NCBI GenBank assembly: GCA_003024175.1
Contig: MDYQ01000050.1
Span: forward strand, 62,001 to 126,000
Source: Planoprotostelium fungivorum
Lineage: Eukaryota; Evosea; Variosea; Cavosteliida; Cavosteliaceae
DNA: 64,000 nucleotides
Direction of reading: 5' to 3'
Shown: positions 3,720 through 64,000 of the stretch, in pieces
Numbering within the stretch: position 1 is the stretch's first letter
Layout: the number at the start of each line of letters is the position of its first letter
Notes under the pieces: model-generated
What the model saw: only the letters and a program-made list of their open reading frames with translations
Databases searched by the model: none
What the model was told of the DNA's origin: nothing
Made by a program: the position numbers and the translations under genes

Positions 3720-4070
3720 TCATCCAACCTCTGTCTGCACCCTTCCAGAACGAGCTCTCTTGTTCTGGAACCATATTTGTATCTTTCTCTCGTCCACGTT
3801 GAACCTCTTCGCCAATGCTTCCTTCTCTTCTCGTGAGGGGTACTGATTCTTTTGGAACAAGTCCAATAGCTCGAGTTGTTGGTGTAAACTGAAGGTCCTC
3901 CTCGGGCTCTGATAGCACGGTTGCTTCTTCAGGTCCTTCATTTTCCATCCATCTCCGTCCACCGAGTAAAAGAAGAATTTCTTACAGCCCAGGTGGATGG
4001 TGCAGTCTGGGGTACACAGATTGTTCCTCTCCTCTCGTGATACTAAGAAGGGTACCTTCATCTTTGGCAT
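3720..4070 (-). CDS. Homeobox protein 3 of a tandem trio
   Basis: Intronless, 116 residues. The layout matches its neighbours: C-x3-C-T-I at residues about 19-25, an aromatic stretch ending SVDGDGWKMKDL, then a homeodomain (SPRRTFSLHQQLELLDL, QYPSREEKEALAKRF, WFQNKRAR). It is the most diverged of the three in helix 2 (SREEKEA rather than TMEQKEA), suggesting it split off first. Likely nuclear DNA-binding regulator; the target is unknown. Confidence 0.88.
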   Translation of the reverse strand: MPKMKVPFLVSREERNNLCTPDCTIHLGCKKFFFYSVDGDGWKMKDLKKQPCYQSPRRTFSLHQQLELLDLFQKNQYPSREEKEALAKRFNVDERKIQIWFQNKRARSGRVQTEVG

Positions 4071-12703: not shown

Positions 12704-14026
12704 ATGCCTTTCACCGTCTTATGCATCGATTATTCCATTGATTGGACTCCGATCTTGACGAAGCTCAAACTATCGGATGGCTCGACCATCAGAGTCGAAC
12801 AAGCGGAGTGGAAAGACATCTCACTCGTATCCAGGTGATGAGAGATCCTTTGAATCTGCTGACATGTTCAACAGCACTCAGAAGGGTATCGTTGTCCATC
12901 TGAAGGCAGCAGAGAACCCCTGGCCCTTCACGAGACAGAAAGAAGATCGCACTTTGACTCAGGTGAACCGACCACCTATGTAATGTAATTGATCCAGATC
13001 AGATCGATCTCGTTCTGATGAGAAACTTCCCCACAGATCTTCACGGCAAAGATTATCGCAGCATCGTCATGGGTGAAACACATCCACCTCTCCTTCCATC
13101 TCACTCCATCAGGTTTCATGATCGCAAGGATCCCCGCCGTCAACTCCTTCCACTCGGTATTCATGTGCATGAACCGCATCTTGCTTCAAGCCGAGATGAC
13201 ATCGGCCACCGAGAGAGCGAACGACCTTCTGAAAGAATCCGCAGCTCAAGCACCTCAATTGAGGGCCGTCTCCATTCACTATTTTCCCAACACGAGCCCG
13301 ACGGAGAATCATCTGAAGAGACCCGATGAGAGCATCTCCTTCCCCGCCGTGATCAAGGTGTGATGTGATGACCCGTACGACGCGATGGTGATATCTTGCA
13401 GGTGGGAAATACACATGCAGGCTATGGTAAGATGAGGGTCTTCGATCGATGTGACGAAGATGATCTGAGATCCATCATCGCTCTCACGAACGAATACTGC
13501 ACGTGAGCCGATCTCGATCACGATGCAAGTTGATCGAGAGACAGAGTCGAACCACTGGTGGAATATGAATACGAATATCGCATTCAAAAGATTGGAGAAC
13601 ACGTGAGATGCTTCAGGAGAAATAACACGAAGAGGGGAAAAGGGTGAGAGATGACCCTGTCGAGTGTTTCGGATGACACGGTGGCTCATGCGATGATAGA
13701 GATCATGGAGACTGGAAGAACAACTGGGGGAATTTGGCCTTCGAGAATATGGACACAGAGCCCCACCATCGAGTGTGGATCGAGGAATGTGCAAAGGTGT
13801 GAGACCTTTAGACTGTGATGAACTCACACGAGCCCAGATCTTCGGAGGTTTAGACATCTGCGCTTTAGACGTCTTCCACTGCAGAGATGGAGAGGTCGCC
13901 ATCGAATTGAACGACACCGCGTGCGGTCTCATGTTCGAACATCAAGATGAAGACATCGGCCACATGAGAGACCTCATCGTCGACCGTCTGAACCGTCTCA
14001 TCATCTCCCCTCCTCTGAAAGAGTAA
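12704..14026 (+). CDS. Synapsin-like ATP-grasp protein
   Basis: Five or six exons, roughly 330 residues. It aligns from memory over the whole synapsin core: VEQAEWKDISLVS (synapsin VEQAEFSDLNLVA), IDLVLMRNFP, DYRSIVMG, IPAVNSFHSVFMCMNRI (IPSVNSLHSVYNFCDK), FPAVIKVGNTHAGYGKM (YPVVVKMGHAHSGMGKV), IFGGLDICALDV (identical to the synapsin IFGGLDICA) and EHQDEDI near the end. The first half is the pre-ATP-grasp domain, the second the ATP-grasp fold. It lacks the metazoan phospho-A/B regions and proline-rich tails, so it is a bare core. Animal synapsins bind synaptic vesicles; the ancestral role is unknown. It neighbours a SNARE gene. Confidence 0.88.
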
Positions 14027-14526: not shown

Positions 14527-16996
14527 ATGGCGAACTCGACCGTCACGATGGACGAGATGATGGCCAGGATGGATCAGATCACGGTTGGGGTGGATATGGC
14601 GTATACCCTCCTGTCGGGTGCATTGGTACTTTGTGAGTATAGAGGATGGAAGGGAAGGGCTGATGGGAACAGTGATGCAGGCGGGCTTCGCCATGTTAGA
14701 AGGAGGTATCGTCACGAGGGACAGCACGAAGAACATCATGTTTCACGTGAGTTCATTGTAGAAGATACAAAAGACAAAGAGTCTTACGAGTTTCAGAGTC
14801 TAGCGGATACTCTCGTCGGGGCTGTCGGTGAGTTCCCCCCTCTCCATTTTCGTCTCAAAAGGTCGCAGTCTATTACATCGTGGGTTATGGTGTAGGATAC
14901 GGAGTGGGGGACGAGCCGAACGGTTTCATTGGTGACTGTCGTTCATTGTCTAGACATGATCTGACGTTAGATCAGGCACTGTCAACTTGTTTGGGTTCTG
15001 GAAGGCTAATGACACCGATCACATCAAATGGCTCTTCTCCGTGAGGACCTCCCTCTCGTTCCTTCAATGACCCTTCCAGTTTGCATTTGCCGCCGTCGCC
15101 ACCACCATCGTCAGTGGAGCCACGGCCGAGAGAATCAAAACCCTGGGTTACATGATCTACGTCGTCGTTGCCAACGTCCTCCTATACCCCATCATCGCCC
15201 ATTGTGATTCCATATGACATCCATCCCATCTGATGCATCGTCCAGGGATGTGGTCCACCACCGGATGGATCTCTCCTTTCAATCGTCTGAGCGAGAAGGG
15301 ACCGATCGCCTCTCTTGGAGCTATAGACTTTGCCGGAGATGGTGCTGTTCACCTGTGAGACTATCCTCTTAAGAGTGTTTCTCACGTTTCGCAGCGTCGG
15401 AGCCGTGCCCAGCTTCGTGGGAGCCCTCTTGTTGGGATACAGAGGACAGGTGAGGTCCATCGTGCATCGCATGCGATGGTGATCGGATGCACGTGACGAT
15501 GACACTCTTCAGTACACTCGAGACAAGGAAAGGTACCCGCCTCGTTTCTACAAGGATGCAAACCACAAATGGCAGATCAACGAGTTCGCTGGTAACAAGT
15601 CAGTAGCCTCCCTCTTCTCCGTCTCATCATCACAATCTCCATCGTCCATTCGATCATCTGATCATCATCTAATCATCATCATCATCTGATCTCCCTTCAG
15701 TGATATCACGGCCACCGTTGGTGCCATGCTCCTATGGGTCGGTTGGTACGGTTTCAACTGCGGCTCCACCCAAGCGATCGTCAGCCAGACCCACATTGTC
15801 GGCCGCATTGCAGTCAACACGACATTGTCCGCCGCCGCCGGCGGCATCGCCGGCTCCATCGTGGGTGAGCTATAAATAGACGAATGATCTATAAATAGAC
15901 GTCTCGGTGTCTGAATCGTACCATCAGGTATGTTTGTAGACAAGACGAGACAGTTCAATCTGTCGGACGGCATCAACGGCATGCTCGTGGGCTTGGTTGC
16001 CATCACCGGTGGTTGCTCTGTGGTAGAGCCTTACGGTGCAATCGTCATAGGAGGTGGGAGGGAGGTGGAGGTGTAGAGTGACGGTGTCAGTTGTGGGGGC
16101 CATCATCTGTAAATTCGTCAGCGTGGGAATGCTGAAGGCGAGAATAGACGATCCAGTGGACGCCGTCGCAGTGCACGGAGGTGGAGGTGAGATCGAGGGA
16201 TGACGATCGATCGATGATGATCGGATGACGATGAGATGAGGCTGACGCGTGTAGGTGCTTGGGGACTTCTCGCTATCGGATTCTTTGCTACGAAAGAGTA
16301 TGTCGCTGAAGTCTACAACCGACCCGCTGCCGTCGATGATTGGGGGGTGATGATCTCATCATGTCATTCGTCTCATCGTCACATCAACACGACGTTGCAT
16401 CATGGTCACGCAACACGTTCTGATTTCCTCAGGTCTTCTATGGAGGAAGTGGTAGACAGTTGGGAGTCCAACTCTTATCCATCGTTGTCATCACCGGTTG
16501 GTGTGCCCTCATCGCGCTCATCGTCTTCGGAGCCATCAAATTGGTCGACGATTTCAGAGAGAGACCACTCTTCACCTTCAGAGGTATAGATAGACGTCAC
16601 CGTTTCATCACGATCTGACGATCATCACAGATGAGAGCAGTTTCGAGATCATGGCCTTTGGTGCCGAGAAGAAGGACAACGCCAGAGCTGCATTCGTAGA
16701 CCCCTCCATCCTAATGTCATCTCGTCCACGTGAGCCATCATCTCATCATCATCCATCTCGCCTCTCATCTTCTATAAAACTGACTCACTTCAGGTGGAAA
16801 CGACATTCCTTTGACGACCATGTCCCTCACTCAACACAGTCACTCCCCAGACACGACACCTCAGCCCACCATCACACTTCACTCGCACAACATGCCACAG
16901 ACTCGCAGCACGGGCATCACTGGCTCTCCTATCTTAAGAAGTGGTGAAGGCGCTGCCTCTGGAGAGTCTGATTCGGACACGGACTCATCGGTCTGA
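14527..16996 (+). CDS. Ammonium transporter (AMT/MEP family)
   Basis: About ten exons encode a typical ~470-residue plasma-membrane ammonium channel. Seen in order: AGFAMLEGGIVTRDSTKNI (family AGFA.LE.G), FGFWKANDTDH, FAFAAVATTIVSGATAERIK, WISPFNRL, the first pore histidine in IDFAGDGAVH, GAVPSFVGALLLGYR, MLLWVGWYGFNCGS, SLSAAAGGIAGSIV-like, LSDGINGMLVGLVAITGGC, and the second pore histidine in VDAVAVHGGAWG. The cytosolic tail is Ser/Thr/Pro-rich and acidic, ending DSDTDSSV, a likely regulatory region. One intron (about 15866-15930) holds a short duplication of CTATAAATAGACG. Both pore histidines are kept, so it should be functional. Confidence 0.93.
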
Positions 16997-23211: not shown

Positions 23212-26200
23212 TTATCTGAAATCGCCATCGAAGCCACTGAATCCACACAACTTGAATATGGGATAGTACTTCTTCTTCGGTAGCTTCTCACACCAATTCC
23301 AAGCAGAAGTCAGTCTTCCATCGATGCAAGATCCAGCATCGTAAAAGTTGTCGGCACCGGAGCCATCTATAACGATGAGAGGAGATATAGACGAGAGACT
23401 TCACCGAAAGCATGACGGAAGAAGTCAGTCAAGATGGTCTTCTTCAGCATGTCTACGCCATTGAAGGTGCTTCGAATGTATTCGGCCAGGCCTTCATCCT
23501 GAGCGATGTCGTCGATCAACTTGATGACAATGAGGATCGGGTTGATGATCCTGATGACAAGATCAGAAACGCGACCTCCATGTGATGGTGATCGTGATGC
23601 GAACGCGATGTGGAGATGACACATCTTCAAGTGAGCGATGATGGATCACCTCGGGACTTGCGTGTACTTGTCGATGAACATGAGCGCATTCGGCACGTTG
23701 TGATCACCCAGATGAACCACCGATGAACCGACCCAATCCCCGACACTCTTCTTCGTCCTCGACAGGAGCTCCTGCATGGCCTTGCCTATACTCGGTGCGT
23801 TCTGAACGCGGTTCAAACCCTGTCCCCGGCGTCAATCTTTTTCCCTCTTCTTCTCTCCACCTGGCCCGTATTCGTGAGACGATAACGGTTGTGTGCGTCT
23901 AAGAGATCCCTCTCAGCTAAAATCCACAGACGAAACATGTCGTTTGTGATCTCTCTCCACAGGTGAAGTGACTGCAAAGCGTAGGCATACTGACGCGCGT
24001 GGTCGTGTGACAATCTGGCACCGTTGTGGCCCGACTGGATGGACAGAGAAAAACCTGGAGGGGGGTGAGGAGGGATTCGAGGGTGGCGGCGGAAACGTTC
24101 GCGGCGGCTCACCTTTCTCGGGCGTGGTGGGATTGAAGTATTTCTCGAGTAGCTCGATCATGCCGTCGACGGGGTCGCGGGTGCCGATCAAGAAGGAAGC
24201 GTTGTCTCCCATGGATCTCAGGCAGAGCTGTGGCGGTCAGTTCGAAATTCAAATCGCGCGGGAAGACACCTTGATGTCGGAAGACTTGAGTGTGGCGTTG
24301 GAATATTTGTCGGCCAGATGTTCCACGGCTGCTTCCTTTGCTTTGATTTCTCTCTGGATTTCATTTCTCTTCTTCCTCTTGTCATCCACAATGGCCTGTC
24401 TCCGTCAGTGAAGAATAAAATAGAATAAAAGCGATTCGCGTGCATTCAGGCGATCACGTGATCGTTGTAGATGGTTACACGACTCACCATGGTGGCTAAT
24501 CTGAGATTGGGGTCTTGCAAGAGAGACAGACCTTTTCTCTCTTCTAAGTAAGAGTGAACGGTGATGACCGGTTTAACGGCCGAAAATCCCATGAGACTTT
24601 CAAAATTCAAAAACTGAATCGAGCGGGAGACTCACTCTTGGATCTCTGGCAGTGCCGAGTCCATCAATAAATAGACGAGCTTTCCGTATCTACAACGAGT
24701 CAGTCAATCGATTCTATTGAATTAAATTTAGAAATAAAATGTCGATCGATTCCCTCTTCATCATAGCTGCACGTGCAGCAGGTGAAGTATAGACTCACTC
24801 GGTTCTCATTTTCTCTGGGTTCATGATCTTGTGTCTCCTGGCGATCTCAAATACAGATTGGAAGAAGTTTTCGTTGTCGGCAAAGTTTCGATCCACGATC
24901 AACTTCTGACCGGCAGAGTAATCTGTGACGATTCAATGGAAAGATGAGATGATGCTGATGAGATGATGCTGATGGGATGATGCTGATGAGATGACGTTCG
25001 AAAAATGGATGAGATGATCTCATCGCGATGCGAAACAATAAAATCTTTTAAAATCGATTTCAACTCACCCGAAGCCACCAACAGACCAGACAGAATGGCA
25101 CAGATTTCCTTCAGCTGCTCGTGCGACCTCGCACCTCTCTTCCCTCCCAGGACGTCCACCTTTCACGTCGTCATCCATCTACAACGCTGTAGACGCTCAC
25201 CTTTCCAGTGTAATCTGATACGTTCAGAGCGGCTTCGGCCAGACGCAGCAGGTGTCTCTCTTTGTCGTTCAGACGCACCGGGATGAACTTGGCTCTCGCG
25301 GCCAAATCGTTGACGATGTCCAACTGTTAGACATGTGAGTGTGAGATGAGATCGTGTGATGGAGATGTGATGATGTGATCGATCGCATCGTGATCGGTGA
25401 TGATACAGTTTTTCATTTGACGATAGATATTCTTCTCTCTCATCGATATCACATCACGACGCGAAAATTCTTTACATCGTCGAAATTATTTCTCAAGAGA
25501 ATCTTCTCACCTTCGGTCTCTGCATGACAGGCGAAGAGACATCATCATCATCATCATCACCCTCTTCCATCATCATCTTCTCTGTAGCCTCAGATTCCAT
25601 AGAGGAGTCCACTGTTACGGGTGAACAGAAGAACAGTTTACCAAATAACCAGCGTGAGACGTCGCTCGGGATGTAGCTGCGGTAAGCAACCACGCCGCGG
25701 TCACGGTAGTTAACGCGAGAGTGAGGGGGTCCCACTCCTGACCACAGAGGTCGGACAACTACAACGAGAAGAATTCGGAAAGTCGGAATCACCTGACATG
25801 AGGTTGTCATCGGTCGGTGCGAGGGCTACGTCTAAAGAGAGGGCTTCTGCGATGGATGAGATGGAGATGGATGAGGGGCTCACCCGTTGGCTTCTGATTG
25901 TAATCGGGCTCTTCCACGGAGATCTTCGCTTTGCCCAATGATAAGATCCTGTCCGTATTGGTGAGGATGATTCGATTCGAAACGTCTCACTTGACTCGAT
26001 GGCCCATCTTCTTGATGCCGATCTCTTTCAATAGATCATGATTCAATAATCTGTCGTCTCATTTAATGGGGATGGGAGAGATTGACCCACTTGGATGTTA
26101 AAATGGAGGAATCGATCTCGTGGGTTGCCATGGCCGATGCATAAGTCTCCGTCTCTTCTGCAAGGAACCCCAACGGTCGGAGAGTCTCTATGACTCCTGC

Positions 26201-41517: not shown

Positions 41518-43839
41518 TCATCCACTGATCTCCAGCTTCTTGATGAGACGAGTCGTAAACGATTTGAGTTGAGGAGAGCACCACATGGTGTGGTGATACC
41601 ATTCGTTCGAGAACCACCATGGGTCGGTGTACTGCCCCAAGAGCTCGTCTAGAGAGAGAGGCAGAGCTGCCGAGAAACAAGGGTAGTTGTGAATTTGACT
41701 GGGCTCAGATGGCTCAGTGAACATCCGGATGAGGCCATTAGAAGGCTTGAAGACGGTCTTGGGTGGGTTTCGCTTGAAGATGGAGACTGACCACGGAAGT
41801 AACAGGGGGACCTATTGGAACGGCCGTGAGAGATGTGTGATGGCGAACGTCATGCATTTTGAATGACGATCGATGATGGATGGGATAGATCCATTGATAC
41901 ACACCTGGCTGTTGATTGATGTGAAAAGAATGTCATCAAAGGGATAATTCGTAATAAATTCCCTCTCATCTTCTGGTTTCGTCTGTCTATAGAGCTCCTC
42001 GGTGTGTGTCACTCATCGTCTCAGATGATCATCTCTCACCATAACTTCCTTCACTTTGATTCGTATCTCAGCCTTCCATGCAATCTCAGGCTCACTCGTA
42101 GTCTCTCCATCTTGTCTAAAACATTCCGTGAAGAAAAGGAGAAGATTTGTCTTCATCTGTTTGGCATCGAAACATTCTTCCATCATCTCAGTCACCTGTC
42201 GAATTAAGAGGCTGTCGTACGAATAAAATAGAATAAAATGATTTCGAAATATCCTTCTCCTCACGTCTCTGGGGTCCATCTTGGCGATTCGATCGAGAGT
42301 GTCATCCGATGTCTGTCTCTTCATTAGTATTGTGATGAGAGGATGATGAGACCACCTTTGTGTTTCTGGCGGACACACGGATGATGTCGGGTGCATGACT
42401 TCTGATCTCGTCTGCAGTGATGTTCAAGTCTTTCAACAATTGTTCGGACATCAAACTGTGCCGAGTCAGAATTTCATCATGGACCCGTCCCACCGAATGG
42501 CATTCAATCCTCCCCCAGAGGCCCGCTGCACCTTGTCTTGATCATCCAAGAACTTTAATTTCTCTTCCACATACTCTGTCGCGTGAATGTCTCGTGGGTT
42601 CTGAAGCGGAGTGAGATCATGTGATATCTTTGGACATCTGCATGTGACCCACTTCGTACAGTTTTTGTGCTGCCATATCAGAGAGAGAAGGGATTTTACG
42701 TCTCAGATGAGGTGGTGTCACCAATTCGACGAGTTGGAGGATGTCTTCGAGGCGGAGGAGACGCTTGATGTCTTCGTGTTTTCTGTTATACTTGGAGATG
42801 TAATAGAAGATGCCAGACAGACCGACAGAGTATGGACCTCCACTGTGTTGTGTGATTACCTTGATGGAATGCAGAAATCGTAAGATTCAGATGGATGATT
42901 CACCTCGAGAGATATTCTGGGTCGTCACTCTTATCGTAAGAGAATATCACGTTCGTGTCGCCATTCTTTGCTTTCAATGAAATCTGCGAATCATCAGAGA
43001 GACCTCCACTGATTCAGCTCACTTCTACCGTTACAGGTCCGGCTTCCTTGGTGTTGGCACCTGTGCTGTCGCCCATGTGTGATGTGGTTGAATTGTGGCC
43101 TCAAATGTTTGAGCCACTACGTCATCTTCTGGGAAATGTCCACAGCTCAAGGTCATCTAGATGCTTCAATTCATCGCCTACTCTGTCTGAGAGGGACTGA
43201 ACTCCATGTTGAACTCACATTCCAAGAGAAGACGTGAGTGAAATGCCATCGACACGTTTCGCCGTGATCCATCTTCATGAACCAACAATTTTGATTTCCA
43301 ACGTCGCGATAGACCTTCACTATGGTTCGTGTTGAAGAAGTGCCTTCTTCAATGAAATCGACCTTTAGAGAGCCGCGGAGCTGGGAACTCCTCTGCCCAT
43401 GACATGCTCAAACAACAATAAACAAGGATGGAGATTATTCGAAATATTGCTGAGGCCTTTAACGACAGAGAACTCACAGATCATTGGTCCTCATGCTGCT
43501 GACCTCTCTGTCACCTCACATGGTCGACGATGAGCTGGAAAGCTTCATTGTTGTAGACAAGGAGGTTGCTGTTCCCGAAAACACAGGCCAGCATCAGCAC
43601 GAGGCTTTTCGACCCCCACTCGCGCGAAAGCAGGTGGAGGAATATGTTTTATAGACTCCCTCTGTCGTTCTTCCTCTTTCCATCGACAGCCGAGATTGAA
43701 CTGTATAGGGAGTCCACCACATTTTAATGAGCAAGCGGAATCGTGCTCTTCCAACGTTTCCAGAAGCAAATTCAACGGGTGGGTTTCCTAAATGCAAAGA
43801 CATATATATGACCAGCAATCTTTGAGGATCGTGATTCAT
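41518..43839 (-). CDS. Large multi-exon gene, unrecognised
   Basis: At least nine exons have coding character in one direction: VDFIEEGTSSTRTIVKVYRD, HGETCRWHFTHVFSWN, NVIFSYDKSDDPEYLSR, LLRLEDILQLVELVTPPHLR, IHATEYVEEKLKFLDDQ, LLKDLNITADEIRSHAPDII, MMEECFDAKQMKTNLLLFF, REFITNYPFDDILFTSINSQ and the final exon with LDELLGQYTDPWWFSNEWYH, ending KKLEISG. Most joins are in phase. The 5' exons (43545-43839) are ambiguous in frame. I do not recognise any domain. An intron at 42190-42240 carries the T-rich element in sense orientation. It is divergent from the RasGEF gene, whose ATG is only about 30 bp away. Confidence 0.5.
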
Positions 43840-43870
43840 TTTGTCTTTAGAGGACGATGCAACGGAGAAT

Positions 43871-46800
43871 ATGGAGGAAGAAACTATGAACAATTCTGCA
43901 ACTGACGCTTCGGCTCGAGCTGCAAGAGCGGTCGAGGTAAGTCGCGTGATGGTGTCACCGTCTCTATCCCTACGTCCTTTTTACCCTCCTCGTCATCCAT
44001 ACCTGCAAATCGATCGTCCAATTTAATCCTCGATTTCACATAACGCAACCACGTCATCCTTCTTTCGCTCCCTTCTTTCGTCTATCTATCACTTCCCTCC
44101 GCTTCACATCGGTTCCATCTGCTCAACCCATCGTATGACATGATCTCAGGAATTCGAACGCCGAGAGCTTCCACCACTCCCCAACAAACCGAGACAATTG
44201 AGACGTCCAACGGCCCCCAGACCCTCCCCTCTACGCAAGAGCCCATCATCCGGATGGCTGCAGGTGTGCACACCTTTTATTTCCTTTTATTTCCTTTTCC
44301 ACCACCGTATCGACGCTGCGAGCAGAGAGAAATGGAAGAAGAAGAGAACGCCTCCAGCGAGGCGAAGCTCAACCTTCCAAAATCACCCAAAATGAAAGAG
44401 ACCGCACCAGGGTCACCCGGCATACGCCAGTCGAAGAGTCACGAGGCCATCGCTTCCCTCGTCAAGCAATCTGTAGAGGTGACGTCACACAGTCCACGTC
44501 CGAGATATTAAAGAGGGTAGAACGGACTCATGCAGTCGGCCTCATCAGACAACCCAGTCGCCCGCGATCCGGACTCGTTAGACATGGCTGAGTTTCAGAA
44601 GAGGGCCATCTTGTCCATCGTCAGGGGACGTTCAGTCATCGTCGATTTAGACAAGGTACCCGCCAATCGAGACGAGAAGAACAACGATTTCATGTTCAAG
44701 AGTGTCGACACGGTCAGCAAGGAGAGTCTGTTCGAGAGCGTCATGCAGAGCTCGAATCCAGCCAGTGAGTTTCGTTTCTCATCATCGTTGATGTGATGGA
44801 TGATGTGTGTGATGCGTCCGTTGATTCACATCACATCGAGATGACATCATCGATTTGTCTATTCGCTCAACGGTGACAGATGATCCCTTCTTAAGGCCTT
44901 TCTTGTTGGTCCACAGACAATTCACTGATTCATTTGAACTGGTCCACTTTCTGTACAAGAGATACATGTTAGATTCTCCCAACGCCACGACAGACCGTAC
45001 AAAGTGAGAAATTCACATTCCTATTCCAACTATCTACATGTACACATTCGAATTACATCTGACCATCTACATATACACATTCGAATTACATCTGACCATC
45101 TACATATACACAGTAGAACTATATTTCTATATCTATATATACACAGTAGAATCACATAGATGGGTCATCGGCTGAACTTGAAATCGCAGGGTCTTGGAGA
45201 TATTGAAAGTGTGGATCAATCTGAACAAGGAAGATCTGGAAGACATTCGAATTCGAGTTCTCTTGTCGACGTGGCATTGCACGCTCATCAATTCGAGCAG
45301 AGCCAACGACACAAAATGGGCCGACACCATTCGATTGTGCTGGGATCAACCTCACGTGAGTTTCATTGGATTACGACGGTCTCATTCGATTGCGGCGGCT
45401 TCGTTGATGGAGTATGGAGGGAATTTGACGGAAATTTCAGGAAGAATCGAGAGATCTGACGCCGACGATTCAGAGGAACATCGGATCGAAAGAGAGTAAA
45501 AAGGTATTTCATTATTCTTTTCGTTTTGAATCCATCTACAACGATCCAGGTCCTCAAGTTGAAAGACCACGAATTTACCGAGAAAATTCCAGAGTTCTAC
45601 CTCGCGTGTCAGGTGTGTACCCCTCACCCTGCGACATCTCGACGATACGTCAAGACATCTTCGTGACCCATTCGAACAGATGACCGCCCTCGAATTCGAG
45701 TTCTACGAGAGAATCGACATCAATGATCTACTCAAGAAAGATTGGCACAAGAACACGACTTCTCTCTGTCCAGCCAGAGACCACTTCAACAAGGTGACGG
45801 TTCGTTGTAGATGGAGGGTTGACGGGTTGTAGATGGTGCAGTGGATCGCCACGGAGGTGATGTCGCAGTCGCATAACAGTCAGAGGGTCACTCTCGTCAA
45901 CAAGTTTGTCAAGATCGCAGATGTGAGACATCTATCACTTTCACTCATCTCAACACGTTCCTATTCTACATCTCATCTTCACATTGTTTATCGATTTTAT
46001 ATTTTATCTTTCACTCGACCAGATGTAGAAATGATTTTATTTCCATTTATTTCTACATCCGTGGACCAATGATTCTGATCGTATCAGGTTCTGATGCGAT
46101 TGAATAACTTCAATGGAGTGATGGAAATCTATCAAGCTCTCACTCTTCCTGCCATCGCCAGATTATCTCGGCTGTGGAAGGTGAGTGTACAAGTGGCACG
46201 TTGTAGATTGACGTGAATCAGAAAATATCGACGGAAGCCAAGTCCTCGTGGAGCACCATCGAGAGCGTGATGAAGAGAGACAGCGAGGGAAAATGGGCCG
46301 TCTACAACTCGCTCATCCGAAAGGCAGACGGTTGTCTCATCCCCTGTCTGTGTGAGTACCATCTACATCGTTGTAGATAAGTCTATTTTTTCTTCCCGCG
46401 TCATACTCTAATTGATAGACAAACTCTTCCTCTTTCACCTGATCAAATCATGATGACACATCGCTTTATTTTATTTTATTTGACTTGATGCAGACATAGT
46501 CATGTCAGAGATGGAGGAGATCGACAAGAGTTTCTCACATGATGACACAATGTTCAACTATAACAAGATCACAGCCCTTGGAGAAATCGTAGAATCATTC
46601 AGGAGGCATCAGACCATTCAGTACAACATCTCTAGGGACAGAAGGGTACAGACTTTCCTCAAGGAACAAGTGAGTGATGATGATGATGATGACCGACTGA
46701 TGATGATCGCGATGATGATGGCTGACGACGTGTGGCAGGTGAGAGTGGAGTCCAGCCGTAAATTATCCGCTCTATCTCAGAGATACGAGCCCGCTGGTGG

Positions 46801-49800
46801 CGTCGATCCATCTACAATGAGACAAGAGGCACCGATCGAATCTTTCATCTGGTATTACGGTAACGCCTCCCGAGCCCACACGGAAGACATCCTACACCGT
46901 TGTAAATTCAGGTGATTTTATTCTATTTTATTCTCTTCTCACCGATTGACAGATCTTTCTTGATTCGAAACAGCAACAGCCACCAAGGTCACTACTCTCT
47001 ATCTCACTGCAACGGTGAGAGAGGACAAGTCGTTCACACCCTCATCAACCCATGGTGAGTCGAATTTTCTCAGAATATTCTGAGAAATATCCCGGAATAT
47101 TTATAGACCTTTCACGACATTTTCTTCGAATCTTCTCTCACGCTTCGTCAGCCCCGGTGGTTTCTACTTGCAGGGATCGACTGGTGTGTACAAATCTCTG
47201 GCTCAGCTCGTAGAAGGCTGTTCGGAGCTTTACGGCTACAAACCAGCTTGGAACGCCGCCGCGAAGACGGTCAAGCTGGAGCTAAAATTACCTCTTCCAC
47301 CGGTGGAGCCTGATTCGAACGTCTACAACAGCATCTTACCCTCCGTAAAGAAAGCCACGTCGAGGGTAGAAAAGTGAGTGAAATTTCGTACATTTCTCTC
47401 ATCTACAACTCGCCTCGATGTCTCCTCATCTCATTTCAGGTTCTTCGGTACAAACAAATACGCCCACGTGCCTCAATCCACTTCATCGAATCAATTGATC
47501 GTTCGCAAACAAAACGAAGCGGAAGCTGCCATCGAGACGGGAAACATTGCACGTTTGGTCGAACTCATTCGAGAGGGTTTAGAATTAGACAACACGTTCA
47601 AATCGGGACAAAATCTGTACCACATCGCCGCCGACTACAACGATCCACGTCTCATCGAGTATCCTCACCTCTTCCATTCTCCGAAATTTCCCGTACTTTT
47701 CTTTGACTTTTCTCCGTCTCATCATGGAGTATGACGTGTACGATCAGCCGGATATCAACGGTAGAGACGACGTAGGGTGGACTCCCCTCCACACTGCCTG
47801 TTACAAATCACATCTGCGAGTCATCGAGGCACTGATCGAATGTGGTGCGGAGGTTTCGAAGATTTCAAACAGCGGAGCGACGCCGTTACATTATCTGGTG
47901 AGTCGGAAATTGGGACGAGGGCGGACGGAATTGGACTGAAGGGAGTAGGTGAGGAGCAATCACACGGACGAAGAGAGTTTCACGCAGGTGTTGAAGATTG
48001 TCGTGGAGAGGGGAGGAAATGTGAATTGTCAAGATGTCAACGGTTGTACTCCCATCTGGCAAGGTATCCATTTATTCTATTTTATTCTATTTCAGATTGA
48101 AAAGTGATCACACGATCATGACATCACATGATCAGATGATCGAATCACATCATGATGTCATGTACTCATCACGTGCAGCCTGCGCGACACCCAACATCGT
48201 TGCGGTGAAATACCTCCTAGATGCCGGTGCCGATCCATACATACCCAACACCAAGGGTGAGACCGTATTCAAACTCGCCTCCGATCTGGGTCTCAAAGAG
48301 GTGAAATCTCGAGGAAAACTCGGACGGTCACGTGACTGGTCGTAGGTATTGGACGCTCTACAATTCAACAGTTCGAAGAGTAAGGGAAATCTACCGGGAG
48401 ATCTGCTGCTCAGAAACGACGATGCCGTTGTAGAGGGTCAGACGGTGAGAGATTGCACAGACTTATCCATCTACAACGCAACCTGACTATCGATCAGAGC
48501 AGTAAGGTCAGGAACAGCAGCCACTCGGCATTACGATTGGAGAGTGACAAGCCTCCCCCCTTTTCGACTTACTTTTATCGTAAAGGTGAGCGATACGTCC
48601 CACAAAATTCGATTTACACACGATTTATTGTCTGTCTACAACGAGACTGAACGACCGGTAGATCATTTGGATCTGATTGGAGTGGACCAGAGAGATGGTG
48701 TCATCATCTTGTCTTACGAGAGGATTCCAAATTCCACCGGTATCTATCGAACACTCATCCGCACGAAAAAGGTACCATTTTATTCTATTTTATTTCTATC
48801 CTCCACTCGACACCGACGTCACACGACGATCTTACGACATCACATACGACAACCCCATGATGTCGTGACGAAACGGTGGTTGATGTTTGCAGGGAGACGA
48901 GATATTGGAATTTCACTTGGTACCAGAGGCCATCATTCTCGTCAATTCACTTCGCATCTTTGTCGCTCTAGACATGCGATTCATCGACAACTTGAACTTT
49001 TCTGAACTCATCCACAATCGAGAGGAAGAGTTGGTGTCGAGATCGATCACGGCGGGACTATTGCTGGTGCCCGATGGTTATTACACGGAGTCGAAATATC
49101 TGGGAGACGGTGAGATTTTATTTCATTTTATTTTCGTTGCCTATCGATTGTGTAGAAAAATTCTGACGGGTTGTAGTGCCTCAATCTCCCGCGTTCGAGG
49201 AATTTATTCGATTTTTGGGAGTGAAGATACCATTCAAGACGGACATGAGGATGTACTCCCTGGGTGAGATCCATCTACACCGTTGTAGATCGACCCCTCA
49301 CCCCCTCACAGAAGAAACCGGAGAGCCCGACGATTACGCCATCCAGACGAAATACCTCGGAAACGAGGTGATTTCATCGTCTACAACGCTGTAGATCGAC
49401 GATATATCAGGTCATTTTCAACGTATCGACCGTCGTTCCTCGGGGCACAGAGAGAGTCGATCACATTCTCAACAACCGAATGACTGTCGTCTTCTTAGAA
49501 GCTTCCGTGGTCGATTCTACACAGTTGTTCGCCCACGATAACTCTTCTGTCCTCGTTGTCAAACCATTCAAGAGGGATAACGTGACGCATTACAGGTGAT
49601 GTAGATCGTTCATGGTTCGAGTCGACTCTGATCATCATTCGTCATCGAGATGATGATCGTGATGATGATGATGACGAGTGACTGAAGGAGAGACAGATTC
49701 GTCGTGACGAGAAAGAAGGGAATGAAACATTTCAATCCCTCCCTGGAGATTCCATCCATCTTCGCCAAAGACAATTCATTCCGCTCTTACCTCCTCACAA

Positions 49801-51290
49801 AACGTAATTTTTTCCTTCTTTTTTTCTACTTTTTTTTCTTTCTTTTTTTTCTTCCTTCTTGTTTTTCTTTTTTTTTCTTTTCGTTGATCACGATCTCACT
49901 GAAATTTCAGTCATCAACGGAGCGAGGTCCATTCAGCAAGGAGGGGATCGCAGCTCTTTAGAATCGACGAGAGATCGAATTCTCTATGAAATCCACGCTC
50001 AATCGAAATCTCTCCCAACGAAGCCACCGGAAGAGTGGAAGGTGGAGGATCTACAGCGTTGTAGATGGATGACTGACGTGAAAAAGATCGAGGAGAAGTA
50101 CAGGATAGACACGACGAAATTATTGGGAAGTGGTGCCACCTCTCAAGCTTTCCAGGCAGTCAACAGAAAGACAAAAGAACAGGTTTTTATTCTATTTCAT
50201 TTCATCTCATTCCACATCATGTCTCGTTCTATCTTATTTCATTTTATTCCATCGCGCTCCATTTATTCTATTTTATTTCTACGTCTCACGCCTGCAGGTC
50301 TGCATGAAGATTGTAGACAACGCTTGTCTATCCAATGAGTTGACGAGAAAAGCAATTGAGAGAGAAGTCACCCTCCTGCGAAAGATGGACCACCCACACA
50401 TCATCAAAGTCCTCGACGATTACCACCACAAGGGCTGTTTCTACATCATCTTGGAGCTGTGAGTCACGTTTCGAAGAAAATTTTCCCGCCAAAATATCGA
50501 CTGAACTGTACAGTTGCGTCGGTGGAACGCTCTTTGATGACGTGAACCAGAGCACAACTTTCAGCGAGCCACAAGCAGCCAAAGTAATGTACCAGATATT
50601 GACCGCAGTTGATCACGCTCACTCTACGGGTATCTCCCACAGAGACCTCAAGGTGAATATCTTCCATCTACAACTCTGTAGATGACCGAGTCGTACAGCC
50701 CCAGAATATTTTATTCGCCGATAAGATGAAGAGGAAGATCAAAGTGATCGATTTCGGTTACGGCAAAGACGTTGGAGAGGCATCGAATCTGAACAATACC
50801 GTGGCGGGAACTCTAGATTACGTCGGTGAGTTTTCTGTGATATTTCGGACATCGAGGTGACGTGTACAGCCATCGAGATGTGGGACGGAGAGTATGATTA
50901 CTTCAAAGTCGATATTTGGAGTTGTGGATGCATCGCCTACTTTTTGTGAGTAGAACGTGTGATGATGTCACACTCGTCAGACAACCATATACACAGTACC
51001 ATAAGATAACACAACAATCATGTATGTTGACATACATCAGGTTATTTGGACACACGTTGCACTCTGAGTATAAATCGATGAACGATTATCACGAGGCTCT
51101 GAAGAAGGAAGATCTCATCTCCAAGAAGACGAACCTCTCTCCAGAATGTGAGACACGATTCAACCTTCACATCCATTGAAACCCCGCAGGTAGAACCTTC
51201 TTGAAGAGGCTGCTGGAGATCAACCCGGTGAAGAGAGCTTCGGCACAAGAGGCATCAGAAGACCCTTGGATCATCAAACACACGCATTGA
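43871..51290 (+). CDS. RasGEF-SH2-ankyrin-RapGAP-kinase signalling protein
   Basis: About 30 exons, an estimated 1,600 residues. Reading frame carries through all but one intron in canonical phase. Domains: Pro-rich N-terminus (PPLPNKP); RasGEF_N (PFLLVHRQFTDSFELVHFLY, 44880-45000); RasGEF (EFTEKIPEFYLACQMTALEF to NISRDRRVQTFL, 45551-46671); SH2 (WYYGNASRAHTEDIL, FLIRNSNSHQGHYSLSHC with the phosphotyrosine-binding Arg, QVVHTLI; 46845-47230); three to four ankyrin repeats (47490-48310); Rap/Ran-GAP (FEEFIRFLGVKI, DHILNNRMTVVFLE retaining the Asn thumb, FRSYLLTKLINGAR; 48690-49960); and a Ser/Thr kinase (LGSGATSQAF, VCMKIVD, HRDLKPQNILF, VIDFGYGKD; 50087-51280) with all catalytic residues. It would connect phosphotyrosine binding to both GTP loading and GTP hydrolysis of Ras-family GTPases. 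Confidence 0.8.
45032..45150. repeat. Short tandem repeat in a RasGEF-gene intron
   Basis: Two to three tandem copies of a ~33-nt unit beginning CATCTACATATACACATTCG, decaying into ATATCTATATATACACAG. It fills the intron between the RasGEF_N exons and starts with the CATCTACA half-element. Confidence 0.7.
50042..50086 (+). repeat. Palindromic-element intron, 3n and stop-free
   Basis: 45 nt starting GTGGAG and ending AAAAAG, lying between PEEWK and IEEKYRI before the kinase domain. It contains CTACAGCGTTGTAGATGG and is nearly identical to the DUF2009-gene intron at 25160-25200, so I read it as an intron. If retained it would add 15 residues ([15 protein letters not shown]) without a frameshift. 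Confidence 0.6.
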
Positions 51291-61328: not shown

Positions 61329-64000
61329 ATGATGTCGAAATTCAAAAGGTCGCCTACAACGGAAGGAATAGCCAGATTACATCACATTGCAGCGTTTGAG
61401 ATGATGGACAATAAGTCTTCAGGCTCTGGAGGAAAGGCCGAACAAGAGCAAGATGTTCTCCGAATCAACATCAAGACGATGAACAGTAACCTGCGTCCAT
61501 TCCCCATCGATGCAGGGCCCGAACAGACCGTCACTCAATTGAAGAGTATCATTGCTTCAAAGATGAACATCCCGGTGTCCTCTCAGAGATTGATTTATCA
61601 AGGAAAAGTGATGAAAGACGAGCAACAACTCAAGACATACGGTATCAAGAACGAGAACACAATTCATCTTGTCTCCTCTAAACCAGAGGTGATCCCATGG
61701 CTTCTTTGAAGATGATCCTGTGACATCACCTCACACAACGCAGGTTACTGCTAATTCCACAAATCTGACTTGTGAGGAGTCTTTGTAGCTGTTGTTGATC
61801 CCGTGTACTCACCCGTGACAGCATCCAATGGTGTGGATCAGATGCAGACGGAGAATGCAGATAGCGGAGAGACAGAAGGTGAGATCAACGTAGATGTTTC
61901 GACACCACTAAGACACCATCATCTCACGTCTCAGCATCTCGCCCATTACGTATCATCTCATAACATCCTTGACTGATCTTCCACAGCACCCACGATATCA
62001 AGCGTACAGAACCATTCGATTCGATCCACCGAACCACAGAGAAGTACGTTCAATTTAATCTAATTTATTCTCTTCCGTACCATCGTACTCATCTCACCAG
62101 CCACCACGAACGTGGACGGTTTCACCCATCTGCGGTCGCAGATTTCAGTTCTGCGCAGCTCCATCGCCACTCTTCCCACCTGGGCGTTTCCCAGAGATTC
62201 TCCAGGGACCCTCTCGGAATTTCCCATGTCTTCCACCACATCCTCCGTGGACAGTTTGGGACAGTGCATGTCCCAATTGTCGACGTCGGTGAATCGATTG
62301 CTCCCGGTGCTGAGCACGTTGAGTCACGAGTTGATGGAAGATGGAAGAGCGGGATCGTTCAACGACAATAACTCACAGCCCAGGACGAGTCAAGAGAGGT
62401 AACATCCTTTCTCTTCATTTCATCGATTCTAATCCATCTCATTCTATCACACACATCAGATCAATCGCACATCAAATCAATCATACACATCAAATCGATC
62501 AAATTAGATCCACAGAGCGTCGAATGAGATGTTCACTCCAATCGATTGATCACAACGATAGATTGAGAACACAACAATTGGCCACGCAGCTGAGTCCCGT
62601 AATGGAACAACTGGGTCACCTCTTCCTCTCCTTCTCCGAATCTCTTTACACCCTCCGAATGGGTGAGAACCCAGGCAGCAGTCACGTGTCCCCTCCTACC
62701 AGGTACCCTCTCCCTCCTCCCCTCCCTGACTAGTTGTAGATCGACCCAAAACGCTCGACCCACGGTACCTGGGGGTAGGACGAGTGGAAACGAAAATCTA
62801 CTGAGTACACTGAGTGCCGTTATGAACGGTGGAAACGGACCAGCGGGTGAGTCGATTGAATATCTATCCATGCCATTGTAGATGGAATATCGATGTTGAT
62901 GTCACGTGATGTTGAATGGAACAGAGTTATCAGGCTTATTTGCGAATCTGTCGCAGGCCATCACGGGGGAGCAGATGTCCGGTTTTCCCGCCATTTTCTC
63001 CGGTATCGGATCGGAATCACAAATGTCGACGGCAGACACCTCCCTCATCAACTCCGCCAGGTGCGTCTACATTTTCGACGACACGGTCCATGTTTCCCTC
63101 ACCTACCTCATCTCAATCTCACGCGAGAGATTGACACGGTACAGGAGCTCGGCTGGAGTCTTGATGTCTCAGACGTTCAACACGGTGAACCAGGCCATGC
63201 AAGAGAGCAGAAATACACCTGCCAATCAAATCATCCAATCGATAGCCAGAGGACTCAGCGATCGAGACCCCCCAGCCGTAGCGGGTGCGTTTCATTCGAA
63301 TGCGACCATCTACATCGTTGTAGATTGACGATGGGCAGAGACGACGACGGAGAGATTTGTGAATCAGATCCTGCAGGTCATCACTCTACCCGAGATCGTT
63401 CAAGTCATGGGAGGACAGTGGGGACCCGTGCAGAGGATACAACCTCAAATATGCGATTACGTAAAACGCGAACTGCTCAAGAACGACACGTCAGAGCGAG
63501 CCATCGAGGCGTTGTCCGATGACATCAACGGAACTTTCTTCGAAATTTTCGACCCTCAGAATCTGTCTCCTGCCCTGAGACAGAAATTACGATCCAGTGA
63601 GTTCCATTCGAATGAAAATTCTCACATCGGCAGGTTACGATCTACAACAGATCGTAAGTCACGTGACCAAGAAACGCATCGTGATGCTATTGAACATCAT
63701 CATTGCCGATTACACCGCAGCCCCTTCGGTGAGAGAAAAAAAACGCCGGGACCGGGGCTCGAATCCCTGACACTCTCAGCCGTTCGTGACTGTCCTACGG
63801 AATTGGTGCAAAGATTCCACGAACGAGACGGTCAGGGTCATGTCACAATCTTTCGTTGGAGGTGTGGCTGATGCTTCTTCTGCACTGCGAGAGCTGCTGC
63901 AAGAACGTCTCGATTTCTTGAGCCCAGAGTTTGCAGTCATGGCGACCAACATGATCACCTCTTACGTCATGCAGAACTGGTCTTCCACCAGACAACCACA
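61329..64000 (+). CDS. BAG6/Scythe-like ubiquitin-like-domain protein (partial)
   Basis: At least ten exons, cut by the window end. Residues about 45-115 are a ubiquitin-like domain (LRINIKTMNSNLRPFPIDA, TVTQLKSIIASKMNIPVSSQ, RLIYQGKVMKDEQQL, IHLVSS). Downstream come helical segments of BAG6 type: THLRSQISVLRSSIATLP, QQLATQLSPVMEQLGHLFLS, QIIQSIARGLSDRDPP, NQILQVITLPEIVQVMGGQW, DDINGTFFEIFDPQNLSPAL and SQSFVGGVADASSALRELLQ. BAG6 captures hydrophobic clients for tail-anchored insertion or degradation; here it could serve proteins such as the SNARE. The start could instead be the later ATG before MDNKSSGSGG. Confidence 0.75.
63753..63769 (+). other. tRNA T-arm-like sequence inside a BAG6 intron
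   Basis: CGGGGCTCGAATCCCTG forms a 5-bp stem (one G-U) with a 7-nt loop and resembles a box B. It lies in the 51-nt intron 63729-63779. No matching D-arm, anticodon arm or acceptor stem is present, so it is not a tRNA gene. Confidence 0.4.

Follow-up and report, generated by a model that had tools for sequence, protein, structure and literature searches.

A predicted RasGEF, SH2, ankyrin, Rap/Ran-GAP and protein kinase polypeptide encoded by a single gene of Planoprotostelium fungivorum

Introduction

Several proteins of amoebae link the control of small GTPases, or the reading of phosphotyrosine, to a protein kinase. GbpC and GbpD contain a RasGEF (Ras guanine nucleotide exchange factor) domain within a large multidomain protein, which in GbpC includes a kinase domain (PMC1273635). 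In Dictyostelium, a LISK kinase and a ROCO kinase combine RasGEF with kinase, the portion of the source that deals with them mentioning neither SH2 nor RapGAP (Rap GTPase-activating protein), and the SHK kinases combine SH2 and kinase in one chain (PMC1420674). Here we describe a plus-strand gene from the cavosteliid amoeba Planoprotostelium fungivorum, found in a stretch of 64,000 nucleotides (“the window”: contig MDYQ01000050.1, positions 62,001 to 126,000), whose predicted product carries RasGEF, SH2, ankyrin, Rap/Ran-GAP and protein kinase domains, in that order.

Parts of the combination occur in other amoebae. SH2 proteins have been counted at 15 in Dictyostelium, 18 in Physarum and 48 in Acanthamoeba (PMC4758236); the last figure agrees with that of a second source (PMC4053784), and an earlier count for Dictyostelium stood at 12 (PMC1420674). 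The SH2 domain of Shk1 is described as required for localization to the plasma membrane (PMC1420674), and of the dictyostelid GEFs or GTPase-activating proteins (GAPs) in general, some are described with ankyrin repeats and kinase domains (PMC8923023).

Results

Gene Structure and Coding Frame

The exons of the gene were rebuilt by hand from the sequence as open frames, and the outcome agrees at the level of DNA with the original prediction of a single plus-strand polypeptide: the joined exons give one frame of 1555 residues, along which the Pfam matches fall in the expected order (Table 1). All 34 introns are of the GT-AG type and measure 37–213 bp (median 66.5 bp); their ends are GT..CAG in 28 cases, GT..TAG in five and GT..GAG in one, which gives a CAG or TAG acceptor in 33 of the 34. 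The joins keep frame, as had been proposed, and their number, put at about 30, is corrected to 34, or to 35 with the upstream start exon considered below.

Coding potential was assessed by scoring each exon in a leave-one-out manner, the codon usage of the remaining exons being set against intron triplets. The assigned frame was the top-scoring one in 35 of 35 exons (5 to 62 bits), in a test that is not wholly independent, given that the open frames were drawn by hand and that the exons of the model themselves make up the training set. Margins were smallest in exon 1 (12.2 versus 11.2 bits) and exon 35 (11.8 versus 10.4 bits), and exons 21 and 22, the linker joining the ankyrin and GAP parts, scored as coding in frame with 21.0 and 18.1 bits.

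The introns that separate the main modules are short, with 69 bp between GEF and SH2 (intron 13), 66 bp between SH2 and ankyrin (intron 16), and 45 and 53 bp between ankyrin and GAP (introns 20 and 21), so there is little room for a gene boundary at these points. The end of the Rap-GAP domain and the start of the kinase share one open modelled exon (exon 29, 49911–50182). Within it lies a 45-nt stretch that could be an optional intron: if this is assumed, the exon becomes two and the frame is unbroken, and the kinase match is the same without the stretch. On the plus strand between 43601 and 51700 there is no AATAAA and a single ATTAAA, at 44507 in intron 3; the original prediction had noted no internal poly(A) site.

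Translation likelier starts at 43727 than at 43871. An in-frame TAG (43706–43708) stands six codons upstream of the ATG at 43727 with no ATG between them, and the short exon that begins there is followed by a 72-bp GT..AG intron with a T-rich acceptor, after which the frame is re-entered at 43851, giving a product of 1579 amino acids. Exons 17 and 18 can be joined in frame in any of three ways, for which the Ank_2 match scores 80.1, 80.7 and 77.8 bits; neither this choice nor that of the start affects the other domains. Between residues 554 and 1039 the modelled frame is devoid of Met codons, and there is therefore no ready start ahead of the ankyrin or GAP parts. Met554 lies 11 residues ahead of the SH2 match and Met1282 lies 15 ahead of the kinase match, so that the earlier statement that no fresh ATG separates the domains holds for the ankyrin and GAP parts and fails for SH2 and kinase. 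Taken together, there appears to be one gene encoding one protein of about 1555–1579 residues, as predicted from DNA alone.

Domains and Key Residues

Pfam searches were made with the whole 1555-residue protein and with five pieces of it separately, applying the curated gathering cut-offs. RasGEF_N, RasGEF, SH2, ankyrin, Rap_GAP and Pkinase each pass the gathering score in the whole protein, and the same families were recovered from the five pieces searched apart. Every domain type that had been proposed was thus found in the translated product, including the SH2 and Rap_GAP profiles, whose lack the original prediction had named as decisive against it. The residues it had listed as kept (the SH2 FLIR arginine, the GAP Asn, and the kinase Lys, HRD and DFG) are likewise in place, as Arg590, Asn1152, Lys1323, Asp1417 and Asp1437.

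In the N-terminal part, PF00618 (35.5 bits, cut-off 28.3) precedes PF00617 (116.4 bits, cut-off 23.1), the order of REM and CDC25 expected of a RasGEF, and the latter match is near full length (model positions 2–180 of 181). Against solved structures, the GEF piece matched RasGRF1 best (2ije, E=2.1e-20), then Epac2 (3cf6, E=2.9e-16), given in the structure listing as Rap exchange factor 4, and SOS1 (E=9.7e-14); RasGRF1 is a Ras exchanger. The SH2 domain (PF00017, 44.4 bits, cut-off 21) retains Arg572 and His613 as well as Arg590, the last at position beta-B5. The best match of this piece among solved chains was RASA1 (8dgq, E=4.4e-11), followed by SHP2, with values that sum two SH2 domains of the target; the best single SH2 stretch of RASA1 has an i-Evalue of 2.2e-4.

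The GAP domain is identified by PF02145 (68.8 bits, cut-off 27), and by its structure matches, which at E=0.1 or better are confined to two chains of Rap1GAP (1srq, E=9.7e-16; 3brw, E=1.3e-15). The alignment with 1srq spans residues 16–331 of that chain and runs continuously over the dimerization and catalytic subdomains; the Pfam model of the former, Rap-GAP_dimer (PF21022), scored 18.1 bits in the whole protein and 20.6 in the piece, both below its cut-off of 27. The HIGN motif of Rap1GAP, whose Asn is the catalytic Asn thumb, faces HILN here, with Asn1152 in place of the catalytic residue and His1149 kept.

The kinase match covers model positions 4–263 of 263. Glu1342 is retained in addition to the residues named above, Asp1417 and Asp1437 belonging to HRD and DFG, and the catalytic loop reads HRDLKPQN, as in Ser/Thr kinases. 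The closest solved kinase is calcium-dependent protein kinase 2 (4mvf, E=8.3e-45), and among the best 60 of 254 matches are calcium-dependent (CDPK) and calmodulin-dependent (CaMK) kinases. By its sequence, the domain is of the Ser/Thr type and CDPK/CaMK-like. The proline-rich N-terminus bears a short motif which we take to be of the class II SH3-ligand pattern.

Table 1. Features of the RasGEF–kinase gene; positions are those of the window and residues those of the 1555-residue frame.
Feature	Position	Strand	Details
Probable first coding exon	43727..43778	+	upstream ATG; 52 nt, 17 codons plus one base
Coding span	43871..51290	+	35 exons, 1555 amino acids, one open frame, only stop is terminal
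LPPLPNK, SH3-ligand-like motif	44168..44188	+	residues 29–35, proline-rich N-terminus
RasGEF N-terminal (REM) motif	44704..45274	+	residues 168–257, exons 4–6; PF00618, E=1.3e-8
RasGEF (CDC25) catalytic domain	45601..46570	+	residues 323–494, exons 8–13; PF00617, E=1.7e-33
SH2 domain	46850..47215	+	residues 565–640, exons 14–16; PF00017, E=1.8e-11
Ankyrin repeats	47621..48279	+	residues about 754–905, exons 17–20, several models; PF12796 (Ank_2), E=2.7e-19
Rap-GAP dimerization-like region	48567..48895	+	residues 969–1012, exons 22–24; PF21022 below cut-off, covered by 1srq alignment
Rap/Ran-GAP catalytic domain	49182..49948	+	residues 1086–1241, exons 25–29; PF02145, E=5.7e-19
Possible optional intron	50042..50086	+	45-nt in-frame GT..AG between GAP and kinase, holds palindrome
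Protein kinase domain, Ser/Thr-type	50114..51272	+	residues 1297–1550, exons 29–35; PF00069, E=7.9e-62

Relatives, Repeated Motifs and Neighboring Genes

A tblastn search of the protein against the window returned 24 matches, 23 of them within the gene. One paralog candidate elsewhere (25169–25354, minus strand, E=0.024) was judged to be a chance match; the sole clear Pfam match of that region is DUF2009. When the RapGAP piece (341 of the 1555 residues) served as query for relatives, six pattern matches in viral contigs and 61 in contigs of prokaryotic genomes were obtained and none was confirmed in either set, a result of little weight in viral and prokaryotic sequences.

Two repeated motifs occur in the gene and elsewhere in the window. 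The palindrome CTACANNGNTGTAG is present at eight places (8779, 25179, 46363, 49275, 49381, 50051, 50668 and 63310; 15 strand matches), where 100 shuffles gave 0.00 on average, and its half-site ATCTACAACG occurs 20 times compared to 0.09 in shuffles. Four of the five copies of the palindrome in the gene are intronic, and the fifth, at 50051, falls in modelled exon 29, inside the 45-nt stretch. An AT-rich motif like TTTTATTCTATTTTATTT, with two mismatches at most, was found 14 times in the window (mean 0.00 in shuffles); all seven copies in the gene, at 46464, 46916, 48070, 48778, 49116, 50185 and 50261, are intronic.

The window has a GC content of 48.2% and its genes are intron-rich, which together with the domain types is in keeping with an amoebozoan; a tRNA search of it found none. 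The convergent neighbor of the RasGEF–kinase gene is an acyl-CoA thioesterase gene (about 51.5–52.6 kb, minus strand). Also on the minus strand are a second protein kinase domain over two frames (within 1–1400), unrelated to the gene under study; a gene for a beta-propeller protein of the RSE1/DDB1/CPSF1 type (about 6.2–10.7 kb); a gene for DUF2009, a non-canonical E2 ubiquitin-conjugating enzyme, over three frames (within 22.8–27.3 kb); and F-box and MORN-repeat matches (within 54.7–60.0 kb). A ubiquitin-like domain is encoded on the plus strand at about 61464–61682. Three homeodomain matches lie within 2.2 kb of the minus strand (about 1753–1914, 2587–2742 and 3750–3905), and represent either a tandem of three homeobox genes or a single gene that encodes all three homeodomains. 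On the plus strand at about 12710–13993, upstream of an ammonium transporter (about 15041–15869), there are weak matches, slightly exceeding the cut-offs and spread over two frames, to the synapsin N-terminal (23.4 bits, cut-off 23) and ATP-binding domains (25.5 and 29.5 bits, cut-off 22.5); if borne out, the presence of such a gene beyond the animals would merit attention.

Discussion

Proposed Recruitment by Phosphotyrosine and Control of Two GTPases

What is known of the families, together with the intact residues, suggests a reading in terms of recruitment, GTPase switching and kinase output. The protein would be a regulator, brought by phosphotyrosine to a site at which it loads a GTPase of the Ras family and unloads one that is Rap-like, its Ser/Thr kinase providing an output. 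We consider this the likeliest of the readings, with about an even chance of being right. In such a scheme the SH2 domain would dock the protein onto a tyrosine-phosphorylated partner at the membrane; at the docking site the GEF would charge a Ras-family GTPase, while the GAP, by way of its Asn thumb, would empty a Rap-family one. A single recruitment event could then tip the balance at that spot away from Rap (adhesion) and towards Ras (target of rapamycin complex 2, TORC2, and actin), and the kinase might phosphorylate a nearby target or its own protein, as output or as feedback. A narrower form of the proposal, which we put forward tentatively and with some doubt, would make the protein a one-chain Ras/Rap exchanger: recruited by phosphotyrosine, it would turn Ras on and Rap off at one spot, with the kinase as output or timer, and the Ras-to-Rap ratio would be set by one stoichiometric machine, not by separate GEFs and GAPs.

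A biological setting for coupling Ras and Rap in amoebae is plausible. TORC2 of Dictyostelium is reported to be under the joint control of Ras and Rap1, with Rap1 supporting its activation by RasC (PMC4865869); given this aid from Rap1, a protein that turned Ras on and Rap off should not be expected simply to increase the output of TORC2. Adhesion in Dictyostelium changes when RapGAP1 is lost or gained, and RapGAP1 acts on it in the opposite sense to GbpD, a Rap exchanger (PMC9197732).

Alternative Readings of the Gene

Some features weigh against the regulator of two GTPases, and other accounts of the gene can be given. It is very unlikely that at least two adjacent genes have been merged by our model or that a shorter product is made from an internal start. 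As internal starts, Met554 and Met1282 would allow a product running from SH2 to kinase or one of the kinase only, and intron 13, ahead of the SH2 exon, is free of stops if retained. Against this stand the size of introns 13, 16, 20 and 21, the near absence of poly(A) signals, the long interval without Met in the modelled frame, and the coding scores of linker exons 21 and 22.

Granted one protein, its exchange activity is not assured, as the tip of the helical hairpin of the RasGEF has EEIDK in place of the VFIEE of RasGRF1; in SOS1 the equivalent residues insert into Ras. The two residues preceding the GAP His are VD here and KR in Rap1GAP, and the APE motif of the kinase is AIE. The hairpin substitutions and the VD pair would suit a protein that is chiefly a scaffold, in which the GEF, the GAP or both have little or no activity and the work falls to the kinase, with SH2 and ankyrin targeting. 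We regard this as unlikely, since the RapGAP His and Asn and the kinase Lys, Glu, HRD and DFG are retained, the Pfam matches of RasGEF and kinase are near full length, SOS1 tolerates the loss of hairpin side chains in vitro, and AIE in place of APE would impair the kinase, not the GEF or GAP. The resemblance to Epac2 means that the target of the GEF may itself be Rap. GEF and GAP could then act on the same Rap-like GTPase as a cycling or pulse device, the GEF starting and the GAP ending each pulse, and a tethered GEF and GAP for one GTPase would be expected to give fast turnover. This too seems improbable to us, although Epac2 is second among the matches of the RasGEF: the top match is RasGRF1, and specificity is not decided by sequence.

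The phosphotyrosine-recruited regulator of Ras and Rap would, if true, be of interest beyond this locus. Ras and Rap share machinery in migrating cells, as in the case of Dictyostelium TORC2, and a protein that, controlled by phosphotyrosine, coupled the switching on of one to the switching off of the other would be a natural ratio switch and would offer a ready-made test of the idea. The reading of phosphotyrosine would be wired straight to Ras/Rap control within a single chain, in an amoebozoan lineage.

Comparison with Known Systems

The closest parallels in animals share parts of the plan. BCR and ABR resemble the predicted protein in uniting, in one chain, a GEF and a GAP that serve different GTPases, and a kinase activity has been ascribed to BCR; they differ in that theirs are a Rho-family DH-PH GEF and a RhoGAP, the kinase is another one, and neither SH2 nor ankyrin is known from them. 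Neither DH-PH nor RhoGAP is among the 16 families of our whole-protein Pfam scan, which sets the protein apart from BCR/ABR and confines the likeness to the way they would work. The NSP/BCAR3/SH2D3 proteins also link an SH2 to a CDC25-type domain, but there the SH2 comes first, the CDC25 domain serves mostly as a Cas-binding fold, and RapGAP, ankyrin and kinase are not known from them, whereas here Pfam places CDC25 ahead of SH2, with ankyrin, GAP and kinase coming after. Grb2-SOS is likewise a RasGEF guided by SH2, the two being joined here in cis; it consists of two proteins and is not known to include a RapGAP or kinase. Rap1GAP (1srq, 3brw) aligns with the GAP module over both subdomains, with the Asn thumb and His kept, and is itself not known to carry a GEF, SH2, ankyrin or kinase.

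Among the amoeban proteins introduced above, the SHK kinases are not known to carry a GEF or GAP. Their kinases are described as belonging to the TKL group (PMC1420674), and GbpC and GbpD differ in their cGMP-binding domains, SH2 or RapGAP not being mentioned in the relevant part of that source (PMC1273635). Text searches of open-licence papers did not find the RasGEF–SH2–ankyrin–RapGAP–kinase architecture. To our knowledge no case of RasGEF and RapGAP in one chain has been described, nor are we aware of a published protein in which all five module types come together. The protein is apparently a new combination of known parts; unions of two domains, RasGEF with kinase and SH2 with kinase, are already familiar from amoebae.

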